A program made the translations under genes and the position numbers. A stretch of DNA of 64,000 nt from Collinsella sp. (lineage in GTDB: Bacteria; Actinomycetota; Coriobacteriia; Coriobacteriales; Coriobacteriaceae): the NCBI GenBank assembly GCA_029264355.1, contig JARIBW010000036.1:1-64000 (forward strand). Direction: 5' to 3'. Shown in pieces: positions 30,581-37,208 of the stretch (position 1 is its first letter; the number at the start of each line of letters is the position of its first letter). Under the pieces are notes generated by a model. It had not been told where the DNA came from. It saw nothing but the letters and a program-made list of their open reading frames with translations, and searched no databases.

Positions 30581-32008
30581 TCAGGCCCCCTCCCCCATGG
30601 GCACGAGAGGCGCGAGCCCCTCGAGGTACGCCTCGTCTGCGATAAGCGATGACCGAACCGAGCGCATCTGCTCGTTCACGGCGGAAGGAGACGTCCCGCC
30701 CATCGTGGTGCGCGCACCGACGATCGCATCGATATCGAGGGACGATACGATATCGGGTCCGAACAGGGGGCTCGCCTCCTGGAAAACGGCGAGGGGCAGG
30801 TCATCGAGCCGACATCCGCGCTCCTCGCATGCAAGCACCAAGTGCCCGACGACCGCATGCGCCTCGCGAAAGGGCAGCCCCTTCTTGGCGAGGTAGTCGG
30901 CGACGTCCGTCGCCGCAAGATGCCCGACCTCGCAAGCCGCGCGCATGACCTCGGCGTTGAACGTGCAGGTGGAGATCATGCCCGCCATGACGGTGAGGCT
31001 CTGGGTGAGCGTGCTGGCGGAATCGAGCATACCGCCCTTGTCCTCCTGCAAATCCTTGTTGTAGGCCAGCGGAAGCCCCTTGCACGTCACCAGCAGCTGC
31101 AGGAGATTGCCGTAGACGCGGCCCGTCTTTCCCCGGATGAGCTCCGCGAAATCGGGGTTCTTCTTTTGGGGCATGATCGAGGACCCCGTGGAATACGCAT
31201 CGGAAAGGGTGATGTAGCCGAACTCCGAGCTGCTCCACAAAACGATTTCCTCGGCGAGGCGGGAGAGGTGCATCGCCATGGTCGAGCATGCGAAATGCAG
31301 GTCCAAAATGAAATCTCGATCAGAGACCGCATCGAGGGAGTTGCAGATGACGCGGGAGAACCCCATCGCGTGCGAGGCGGCGACGCGGTCGAGCGGATAT
31401 GTGGTCCCGGCAAGCGCCGCCGCCCCCAGCGGGGACGCATCGGCGGCCTCGAAGGCCGCGGTCAAGCGATGGAAATCGCGCTCGAACATCCAGTAATAGG
31501 CGAGCAGATGGTGCGAGAGCAAAATGGGCTGCGCGTGCTGGAGGTGCGTCATGCCCGGCAAGATCACGCCGTCGTTGTCGCGAGCGGCGCCGATCAGGGC
31601 CTCGCGCATATGCAAATTGGCCCGCATGAGGTCGTGGGCGAGCGCCTTGGCGGCAAGCCGCGTATCAGTGGCGACCTGGTCGTTGCGGGAGCGTCCGGTA
31701 TGCAGGCGCTTGCCCGCCTCACCGATGCGGCGCGTGAGCTCGCCCTCGATCGCCATATGGATGTCCTCGTCCTCGATGCGGAAGGGAAACGAGCCGGCAT
31801 CGATCTCCCCCTCGATATCGGCAAGACCCCCCACTATGGCACCACAGTCCCCTTGGGAGATGATGCCCTGCTTGGCGAGCATGCGCGCATGCGCCATCGA
31901 ACCCGCGATATCTTGCTTGTACAGATGCCTGTCGATCGGCAGCGACGCGCCGAATTCCCGTGTGCAGGCAGCGACGCCCTCCTTGAACCGACCATCCCAA
32001 AGCGCCAT
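30581..32008 (-). CDS. argH: Argininosuccinate lyase
   Basis: A 475-residue enzyme for the last step of arginine synthesis, releasing arginine and fumarate. Signature GSSIMPQKKNPD (about 280-291) and the HTGRSRNDQ motif (about 105-113) are intact. ATG at 32008 (MALWDGRF) has GGAAAGG 6 nt upstream; an in-frame ATG at 32014 is too close to that site. It follows argG by 97 nt on the same strand. Confidence 0.96.
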   Translation of the reverse strand: MALWDGRFKEGVAACTREFGASLPIDRHLYKQDIAGSMAHARMLAKQGIISQGDCGAIVGGLADIEGEIDAGSFPFRIEDEDIHMAIEGELTRRIGEAGKRLHTGRSRNDQVATDTRLAAKALAHDLMRANLHMREALIGAARDNDGVILPGMTHLQHAQPILLSHHLLAYYWMFERDFHRLTAAFEAADASPLGAAALAGTTYPLDRVAASHAMGFSRVICNSLDAVSDRDFILDLHFACSTMAMHLSRLAEEIVLWSSSEFGYITLSDAYSTGSSIMPQKKNPDFAELIRGKTGRVYGNLLQLLVTCKGLPLAYNKDLQEDKGGMLDSASTLTQSLTVMAGMISTCTFNAEVMRAACEVGHLAATDVADYLAKKGLPFREAHAVVGHLVLACEERGCRLDDLPLAVFQEASPLFGPDIVSSLDIDAIVGARTTMGGTSPSAVNEQMRSVRSSLIADEAYLEGLAPLVPMGEGA

Positions 32009-32104
32009 TCTCATCCATCCTTTCCGCGACGACCCGTCTCGGCCGTATCCGTCGCGCGGGGACGCGCCCCGCGCGGTCCGCCCCTCACGCACCCCGTGCG
32101 AACA

Positions 32105-33409
32105 TCAGCAATTCACCGCACGGGCCAAGGGGTGTTCAGCGGACGCACCGTCCAGGACATCGAAGGTCGGGGAAGTCGAGGCGCCCCCCTTCGCACGCGC
32201 TGCCTCCCGCATCGCCCACGTCTTGATCGGGAGCCCCTGGATATCGATGAAGCCCTTCGCCGCCTTCTGGTCGAGCGCCTTATCGTCCTCATAGGTGGCG
32301 AGCGCCGGGTCGTACAGGGCGTAGGCGCTCTTGCGGCCCACGACCACGCACCCGCCCTTGTACAGCTTGAGCCTCACCGTGCCGGTCATGCCGTGCTGCG
32401 TGGCGGCCATGAACGCGTCGAGAGCCTGCTTGAAGGGGCTGAACCAGCGCCCGTTGTAGACCTGGTCCGCCCAAAGTTGCTCGAGGGCGAGTTTGTGGTG
32501 GAGCACGTCGCGCTCCAGGCACAAATCCTCGAGGGCCTTGTGCGCCTGGATGAGCGCGAGGCCGGCCGGGACCTCATAGCACTCGCGGGACTTCAGGCCG
32601 ACGTAGCGGTTCTCGATCATGTCGATGCGGCCGTACCCGCACGAACCTGCGATGCTGTTGAGCTTGGCGATGAGCTCGGACAGCGGCAGCTCCTCGCCGT
32701 CGAGGCTCGCGGGCACGCCCTCGGCGAATCCGATCTCGACGTACGTCGGGGTGTCGGGTGCGTCGAGCGGGTCGACGGTGATTGTCCAGATGTCCGCCGG
32801 CGGCTCCGTCCACGGGTCCTCGAGCACACCGGCCTCGATGGCGCGGCCCCACAGGTTGTCGTCGATGGAATAGGGCTTCTCAATGCTCTGGGAAACCGGC
32901 ACGCCATGCATCTTCGCATACGCGATCTCGTCGGGGCGCATCCCGAGGTCCCATTCACGCACGGGGGCGATGACCTTGAGAGAGGGGTCGAGCGCCGTGA
33001 TGGAGGTCTCGAAGCGCACCTGGTCGTTGCCCTTGCCCGTGCAGCCGTGGGCGACGCAGGTGGCACCGTGCTTATGAGCCGTCTCGACGAGGTGCTTCGA
33101 GATCAGCGGGCGCGAGAGGGCGGAGAGCAAGGGGTATTTGTTCTCATACATGGCGTTGGCGGCGATGGCTCGGACGATGTACTCGGAGACGAACTCCTCC
33201 GTCATGTCGACCACCTCGACGGCGACGCAACCGAGCATGCGCGCCTTTTGCGCGATCTCCTCGAGACCGTCGTGCTCCTGGCCAACGTTGCCCAACATGG
33301 CGATCACGTCGAGACCCATCTCGTCTTGCAGCCACTTGATGCACACGGAGGTATCCAGACCGCCGGAGTACGCCAGTACGACCTTTTCCTTGAGTTGCCG
33401 ATTGTTCAT
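32105..33409 (-). CDS. argG: Argininosuccinate synthase
   Basis: A 434-residue enzyme joining citrulline and aspartate using ATP. The PP-loop AYSGGLDTS (13-21) and substrate-binding motifs (HGCTGKGNDQVRFE, YSIDDNLWGR) are present. GAAAGGATGAGCC precedes the ATG. The C-terminal 30 residues are low-complexity and exceed the usual ~400 length. A terminator 120 nt upstream (33531-33552) separates it from the previous unit, so its promoter lies in 33410-33530. Confidence 0.96.
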   Translation of the reverse strand: MNNRQLKEKVVLAYSGGLDTSVCIKWLQDEMGLDVIAMLGNVGQEHDGLEEIAQKARMLGCVAVEVVDMTEEFVSEYIVRAIAANAMYENKYPLLSALSRPLISKHLVETAHKHGATCVAHGCTGKGNDQVRFETSITALDPSLKVIAPVREWDLGMRPDEIAYAKMHGVPVSQSIEKPYSIDDNLWGRAIEAGVLEDPWTEPPADIWTITVDPLDAPDTPTYVEIGFAEGVPASLDGEELPLSELIAKLNSIAGSCGYGRIDMIENRYVGLKSRECYEVPAGLALIQAHKALEDLCLERDVLHHKLALEQLWADQVYNGRWFSPFKQALDAFMAATQHGMTGTVRLKLYKGGCVVVGRKSAYALYDPALATYEDDKALDQKAAKGFIDIQGLPIKTWAMREAARAKGGASTSPTFDVLDGASAEHPLARAVNC

Positions 33410-33530
33410 GGCTCATCCTTTCACGATGCCTTGATACGGTGGAAATGGGTGAGCCCAACCGATGCGAAGGTGCCCCGGGGCCGCACCTGCGCCGGCGCGC
33501 ATCATGAGACGCATGCGATGCGCGCATATG

Positions 33531-33552
33531 AAAAATCCGCCTCTCGGCGGAT
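33531..33552 (-). terminator. Intrinsic terminator upstream of argG
   Basis: On the minus strand ATCCGCC-GAGA-GGCGGAT (33535-33541 with 33546-33552) is followed by TTTTT. It closes the small transcription unit at 33621-33770, or acts as an attenuator ahead of argG. Confidence 0.8.
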
Positions 33553-33620
33553 GCTCCCTCGACGATATCGGTTGGACTCTGCGTGAAGGCCCATGCCTTC
33601 ATGCGAACAGAGACAACGAG

Positions 33621-33770
33621 CTATCGTCGTCGGGAGATTGCGCGCTGGCGTCGGACGGCCGCATCGGCGGCATTCTGGCGGGGCATGCCGGCGGCAATCG
33701 CCTTGCCCTCATATGTAGCCAGAAGCTGTGCCACGGTTACTCGTCCCCTCAAATTCGGCAGCGCAATCAT
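33621..33770 (-). CDS. Candidate 49-residue basic protein ahead of argG
   Basis: The frame starts MIALPNLRGRVTVAQLLA and ends in a basic cluster (RRQRAISRRR). From the middle on it shows coding-type codon use. Support is contextual: a -35 TTGTCA (33845-33850) inside an inverted repeat lies upstream, and a clear terminator follows at 33531-33552. The ribosome site before the ATG is poor; GTG at 33734 behind GAGGGG would give 37 residues. It could also be a leader peptide for argG. Family unknown. Confidence 0.4.
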   Translation of the reverse strand: MIALPNLRGRVTVAQLLATYEGKAIAAGMPRQNAADAAVRRQRAISRRR

Positions 33771-33821
33771 TGCTCGCCATAGTAGCCTAAAGCCAGCGCG
33801 CGAACACTCGAGATTTTCGAA

Positions 33822-33863
33822 TATTTCGACCCTGTTTCTCATATTGACAAGATAAACAGGGTC
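33822..33863 (-). promoter_or_regulatory. Promoter-like site flanked by a 10-bp inverted repeat
   Basis: GACCCTGTTT (33828-33837) and AAACAGGGTC (33854-33863) are perfect complements 16 nt apart. Between them on the minus strand is TTGTCA (33845-33850), a good -35, with a poor -10 (GAAATA, 33822-33827). It may be an operator around a promoter, or a hairpin ending the amino-acid transporter transcript that stops at 33881. Confidence 0.4.
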
Positions 33864-36879: not shown

Positions 36880-37208
36880 GATGATACCTCCGGTTTTGTC
36901 TGAGACCCCTTCCGCACGACGCAACCAGAGGGGGCCCATCCCCCTCTCCCTTGCAACTTAATGCGTGAAAGTTCCGCGTGCCATAAAACAGGATACTCCG
37001 TCTAAATGGAGCATTACCACGAGATATACCATGTAATCTGTTAGTTACATTTTCTATGCATAATTACGTATAGAGAATCACACATGATCGATGACGACGA
37101 AACCCGCCAGAAGGTTAAATGTGGCGGGCTGCCCGCACGGACCGCCTCACGGGCCTACAATATCCTTTGAATCCAGTGGCAATAAACCACACGTCTGAAA
37201 AGGAATCC
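36880..37208. other. Divergent control region with an ARG-box-like palindrome
   Basis: About 329 bp without a gene, AT-rich between 36980 and 37085. It holds an imperfect 18-bp palindrome TATGCATAATTACGTATA (about 37057-37074; 14 of 18 positions symmetric) resembling ArgR sites, an ATGTAA/TTACAT repeat (about 37030-37050), and CTCC/GGAG arms near 36991-37006. These probably control the amino-acid importer. Promoter hexamers were not assigned. Confidence 0.4.

Follow-up and report, generated by a model that had tools for sequence, protein, structure and literature searches.

A conserved arginine-codon leader in front of argG in Collinsella and its probable role as a ribosome-read arginine switch

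In most descriptions, arginine synthesis in bacteria is under the control of the repressor ArgR. The locus analyzed here raises the question of whether the ribosome can also take part in this control. In a 64,000-nucleotide stretch of DNA from a Collinsella sp. (positions 1 to 64,000 of contig JARIBW010000036.1, assembly GCA_029264355.1; hereafter the window), a short open reading frame (ORF) on the minus strand lies directly in front of the argininosuccinate synthase gene argG and ends at position 33621 with the tail RRQRAISRRR followed by a stop codon. An earlier note on this DNA considered it either an independent small gene or an arginine-sensing leader peptide with an attenuator. The second option is strongly favored, because the Arg codons are conserved, always precede argG and form part of alternative RNA pairings extending to the argG start; the terminator that was part of the proposal is not its essential element. 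The 5' leader of argG and the following argH is probably a cis-acting, ribosome-read arginine sensor with facultative transcription termination.

Arginine is strongly concentrated at the end of the leader ORF. Six of the last ten codons specify Arg (binomial p ~1e-5), and CGA accounts for four of these six, compared with 6.7% of the Arg codons in neighboring genes. The leader as a whole contains seven Arg codons among 37, four of them CGA. The earlier note had described a basic ORF of 49 residues, of which the short ORF and its Arg-rich tail were confirmed. Its ATG start was rejected for lack of conservation: in the nearest relative, that frame contains no ATG. A GTG codon with a Shine-Dalgarno-like sequence is present at the equivalent of position 33734 in most relatives, and translation most likely starts there, yielding a peptide of 37 rather than 49 codons.

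Conservation was followed in a genus set of 45 genomes (Collinsella, Enorma and Limicola), in which G numbers denote genomes and L numbers leader loci. Among the 30 loci first fetched, 26 carried a short ORF ending in RRQRAISRRR or a close variant in the argG upstream region. The tail pattern RR(Q/R)RAISRRR-stop gave exactly one match per genome in 41 of the 45 genomes, the reversed pattern used as a control gave none in the same set, and the pattern search revealed no second leader copy ahead of any other gene. Three of the four genomes without the tail (G020, G023 and G027) also lack an argG match. In the fourth, G025, argG is present but the region upstream of it is short and plain, which makes this genome a natural contrast to its leader-bearing congeners. 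At this locus (C11, ~38871; L017 and L113) the leader was lost or never present, and a different promoter-like sequence is found upstream. An independent scan of about 85,000 species genomes gave no tail outside Coriobacteriaceae except one match in Schwartzia (L083) that was dismissed as chance since there was no argG within the 700 nucleotides examined. Wherever the downstream gene could be read it was argG, at a distance of 175-276 nucleotides from the leader. The argG leader is a real, conserved and probably functional regulatory element.

This distribution bears on the possibility that the ORF is an independent gene for a small basic protein that acts in trans, or that ArgR is the sole arginine regulator of argG. 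The ORF does have its own promoter-like motif and start, and an ArgR is encoded in the genome. Nevertheless, searches of family libraries matched the leader peptide to no known protein family, the ORF occurs only directly before argG, and the RNA close to its stop codon pairs toward the argG start; ArgR, for its part, could act in addition and would leave the leader unexplained. This explanation is hardly credible.

The codon table of 43 distinct leaders distinguishes two kinds of conservation. The codons CGA, CGC, CGA, CGA and CGA are invariant, and in the first Arg cluster the third codon is CAG or CGC and the fourth CGC or CGT. At positions -7 to -4 the amino acids are kept and the codons vary (CGC/CGT 13/13; GCA/GCG/GCT/GCC 11/8/4/2; ATT/ATC 15/11; TCC/TCT/TCG 18/5/1). 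As Ala, Ile and Ser are retained with free third positions and the Arg codons are invariant, selection appears to act on both the peptide and the RNA: judged by these substitutions, selection maintains the leader ORF as a coding sequence, with an additional constraint on its Arg codons at the nucleotide level. The ratio of nonsynonymous to synonymous differences (pN/pS) over the whole leader was 0.75; the shifted frames gave 0.90 and 1.24. The leader value falls only slightly short of 1, as the RNA is under constraint as well, and the counts per codon are more telling. Conservation of the Arg cluster, which the earlier note had named as a check on an arginine-sensing role, was thus borne out.

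A control of argG by the RNA itself, through an arginine aptamer or a protein-binding leader with an incidental ORF, would be in keeping with the invariant nucleotides and the long-range pairings described below. It is very unlikely, as synonymous variation with kept amino acids, the Shine-Dalgarno-like sequence and the start codon all argue that the ORF is read. In addition, no T-box or other Rfam leader family gave a covariance-model match to the leader region at the gathering or at a relaxed threshold. The conserved peptide also brings up nascent-peptide arrest, in which the peptide (LATYEGMA..AIMPGQNAAD..RRQRAISRRR) would stall the ribosome on arginine or another ligand and set the same RNA switch, as TnaC does with tryptophan. 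Synonymous changes leave the A-I-S motif and the ATYEGMA body intact, which is more than a simple codon counter would call for. However, the Collinsella aerofaciens group has a 24-residue leader without the body, T-I-A replaces A-I-S in L010, and the body is constrained at the RNA level as well (ACA and GCC are nearly invariant). A product that induces its own biosynthetic gene would also be odd, and arrest by the peptide is considered rather unlikely.

The output of the proposed sensor was sought in alternative pairings of the transcript between the RNA strands A, C1, C2 and E (Table 1). Strand A, defined as CCCGACGACGAT, forms the end of the leader ORF and pairs with C2. Strand E is located about 45 nucleotides before argG and has two alternative partners: C1, and the argG Shine-Dalgarno sequence or start codon. 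In the window, E has a 13-nucleotide complement to C1 and a 12-nucleotide complement to positions 33410-33421. Swapping short-segment partners between species showed that matched partners form the more stable duplexes: C1:E reached -21.2 kcal/mol versus -14.2 for permuted partners (standard deviation 0.8; a difference of 8 standard deviations), E with the start region -13.2 versus -11.4 (0.4; 4 standard deviations) and A:C2 -20.6 versus -19.4 (0.4; 3.4 standard deviations), although the relatedness of the species makes these statistics overstate their independence. Among all windows of its own leader, E was the best complement of C1 in each of the 28 representatives. Unrestricted duplex energies with shuffled E yielded mixed z-scores, and this test was replaced by the short-segment permutation and the window ranking because it allowed long spurious duplexes. 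The helix between E and the argG start covaries in L061, where a change of the second argG codon from AGC to GGC is matched by CTC to CCC in E and the helix is kept.

Folding predictions coupled these alternative structures to the position of the ribosome on the leader. When the leader tail was blocked from folding, as it would be by a stalled ribosome, mean C1:E pairing rose from 3.8 to 10 base pairs. Forcing C1:E increased the predicted exposure of the Shine-Dalgarno sequence from 0.40 to 0.47 and that of the AUG from 0.31 to 0.46, and exposed the argG start significantly, if modestly, more than forcing A:C2. In silico, the argG ribosome-binding site is thus sequestered by an alternative pairing, as in a translational attenuator. 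In the broad sense, the element appears to be an amino-acid-responsive leader peptide, since every defining feature of the class that can be tested in silico was found: a conserved short ORF with clustered codons for the amino acid of the pathway, located directly before a biosynthetic gene, and RNA structures that alternate with leader occupancy.

In the mechanism that we favor, transcription would start near position 33772 and the 37-codon leader peptide would be translated. If charged Arg-tRNA is short, the ribosome would stall in the Arg-rich tail and change which strand C1-C2 can pair with. Without a stall, the tail (A) would pair with C2, the fold of the P hairpin and A:C2 would take up C1, and E would be left to mask the ribosome-binding site and start of argG. 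A ribosome sitting on the tail would instead let C1 pair with E, the argG start would be exposed, and argG and probably argH would be made. A terminator between C2 and E could add premature termination in some lineages, including that of the window. We infer the translation of the leader, the response to arginine, the stall position, the direction of the response (on when arginine is scarce) and the gating of the window terminator.

The strong terminator reported in the earlier note is real, a hairpin followed by five T residues at 33552-33531. A scan of 28 representatives revealed clear intrinsic terminators between leader and argG in the clade of the window (L001-L005) and in L008-L010, weaker candidates in a few other lineages and none in most. 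Since the terminator is lineage-specific and the leader and argG-start pairings are kept throughout, the core that is conserved resembles a translational switch to which a transcription terminator was added in some lineages. An alternative arrangement, a classical transcription attenuator with the terminator as output, would have a stall in the first cluster free A as the antiterminator and leave C1:E a secondary role. The window has a good terminator, the geometry suggests that a first-cluster stall would leave A free, and in L008-L010 the terminator stem is C2:D, with C2 as its 5' arm, so that A:C2 and the terminator exclude each other and A:C2, as predicted there, is a textbook antiterminator. 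As a general explanation the classical attenuator is nevertheless unlikely: most lineages have no intrinsic terminator, C1:E and the pairing of E with the start are kept everywhere tested, and the terminator of the window's clade does not overlap C2.

Several observations weigh against the ribosome-read switch as proposed. All sequences come from one genus, and the counts are not independent events. On average the predicted shift in argG-start exposure is only modest, and some species show no shift or one in the opposite direction. The terminator of the window's clade lies apart from C2 and is compatible with A:C2, which leaves its gating unexplained there. An ArgR-family repressor is encoded in the genome of the window and may exert promoter-level control in addition to the leader. 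Finally, there is a tension in L008-L010, where antitermination needs A to be free and the translational switch seems to need A to be occupied; a stall on the CGA run would favor C1:E but in these leaders also the terminator. The two would be reconciled if the ribosome stalled at the first cluster or if A:C2 and C1:E formed together as a pseudoknot. As C1 and C2 are adjacent, such a pseudoknot is sterically possible. Tentatively, and with considerable doubt, the leader could be a dual-layer H-type pseudoknot, in which the CGA run would serve both as the slow-decoding sensor and as the strand of A:C2, and the C1:E helix would open the argG start, so that the same element would be translational in most species and a transcription attenuator in a few. 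If true, this would show how one attenuation output evolves into the other.

Known systems share parts of this design. Attenuators of the trp, his and ilv type, such as the ilvB-II motif of Corynebacterium (PMC10272879), likewise have a codon-rich leader ORF before the matching biosynthetic gene, a terminator in some lineages and one copy per genome; the argG leader differs in its amino acid and gene, arginine and argG, and in that sequestration of the start region, not the terminator, is conserved. The LEU element of actinobacterial leuA (PMC1262725) also needs no terminator, but it responds to leucine, is unrelated in sequence and gene, and its codon run pairs directly with the Shine-Dalgarno box, whereas in the argG leader the intermediate C1 competes with that box for E. 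As is proposed for argG, the orf34 (SpeFL) leader of Salmonella speF (PMC6386406) uses consecutive Arg codons to sense arginine, by way of ribosome pausing and mRNA structures that alternate. That gammaproteobacterial leader, however, controls ornithine decarboxylase via Rho, RNase G and the structure of the ribosome-binding site and belongs to DUF2618 (PF10940), to which the argG leader peptide gave no Pfam match. The small ORF rbfL of Staphylococcus aureus (PMC13009471) has slow Arg codons that make translation of the following gene depend on arginine supply; there, the paused ribosome itself obstructs the next ribosome-binding site and expression falls, and the target is a biofilm regulator. 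In translational attenuation of the erm type (ermB, PMC8274638), the ribosome stalled on the leader releases a start region that was sequestered, similar to the output proposed here, but the signal is an antibiotic-induced stall instead of amino-acid supply. All of these systems act outside arginine biosynthesis, and the literature covered, which comprised open-licence papers, yielded no leader-peptide attenuator of an arginine biosynthetic gene. The argG leader is near-universal in a common gut genus and absent from the family libraries tried. As its terminator varies between species and its codons and start pairings persist, it offers a natural series for the interconversion of translational and transcriptional attenuation.

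Table 1. Features of the argG leader and its surroundings in the window, in the order of the minus strand
Feature	Position	Strand	Basis or remark
Amino-acid ATP-binding cassette (ABC) transporter operon	binding protein 36939-35959, then permease, then ATPase 34654-33881	-	upstream of the leader region
Perfect 10-base-pair inverted repeat, GACCCTGTTT (33828-33837) and AAACAGGGTC (33854-33863)	33828..33863	-	TTGTCA in loop
Likely leader promoter, -10 TACTAT (33784-33779), weak -35 TGTTCG (33806-33801)	33779..33806	-	16-nucleotide spacer
Shine-Dalgarno-like GAGGGGA of the leader ORF	33744..33750	-	sequence; relatives have it at a similar distance from GTG
Leader peptide ORF, GTG start, 37 codons: (M)AQLLATYEGKAIAAGMPRQNAADAAVRRQRAISRRR	33621..33734	-	sequence and relatives
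First arginine cluster, CGA CGC CAG CGC	33642..33653	-	codon table of 43 leaders
Strand A, CTCCCGACGACGAT, leader end with CGA CGA CGA run and first stop base	33623..33636	-	pairs with C2; folds
P hairpin, TCTCTG ... GCAGAG with inner stem	33577..33613	-	folds
Strand C1, AGAGTCCAACCGAT	33567..33580	-	pairs with E
Strand C2, ATCGTCGAGGGAG, directly after C1	33554..33566	-	pairs with A
Intrinsic terminator hairpin ATCCGCC-GAGA-GGCGGAT + T5	33531..33552	-	lineage-specific
Strand E, ATCGGTTGGGCTCACCC	33446..33463	-	pairs with C1 or the argG Shine-Dalgarno region
argG Shine-Dalgarno region, AAAGGATGAGCC	33410..33421	-	sequence; complement to E
argG, argininosuccinate synthase, presumed controlled gene	32105..33409	-	TIGR00032 and NF001770 above cutoff
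argH, argininosuccinate lyase	30581..32092	-	TIGR00838 above cutoff

The inverted repeat upstream of the leader had been described in the earlier note as framing a -35 element. The repeat is real, and its arms are kept with compensatory changes in L002 (C. intestinalis; GGCCC) and L004 (C. stercoris; AGCCC). The promoter within it was rejected, as TTGTCA is missing from the loops of both relatives and L003 has in its place, where the upstream transporter gene ends, a hairpin with a T-run. The repeat is more likely the hairpin at the 3' end of the ABC transporter operon. A different promoter-like motif, CTTTAGNNTANNAT, whose -10 lies at 33784-33779 in the window, recurs in most leaders where a promoter would be expected, frequently with TTGNNN 16 nucleotides upstream, and is the likely leader promoter. 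A second inverted repeat of the type CAACGTGAAGCGG ... CCGCTCACGGTTG is present in the 5' untranslated region of many species, between promoter and leader start; by eye, it was recognized in L011-L014, L064, L073, L077, L079, L086 and L095, and the leader of the window is without it.

On the minus strand, the transporter operon is followed by the leader region, argG and argH. The two arg genes are separated by 12 nucleotides in the ORF list and are probably co-transcribed. The argG of the window is 89% identical to that of genome G005, and the leader region is identical in L002 (from G005) and L094 (a C. intestinalis DSM 13280 record). By sequence similarity, the window belongs to a member of the Coriobacteriaceae close to Collinsella intestinalis. 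Genes for argG, argH and enzymes of the ornithine carbamoyltransferase type were confirmed in its genome (G000). An argJ match is absent from G000 and from G005, G034 and G035, even though argG is present in all of them, which suggests that arginine is made from citrulline only. With these genes kept and no argJ match, the switch in the species of the window may serve the conversion of citrulline to arginine alone.

Two further observations concern the surroundings of the leader. A Corio-PBP RNA (RF02945, 101.7 bits) was detected at positions 36908-36981 of the minus strand, just before the binding-protein gene of the transporter; the listed ORF start of this gene (36939) falls inside the RNA, and ATG 36879 is its likely start. 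An open frame of 914 codons extends over positions 30842-33586 of the plus strand, antisense to argG and argH; in all likelihood it is an artefact of the third-position G+C content, which is high in these two genes.
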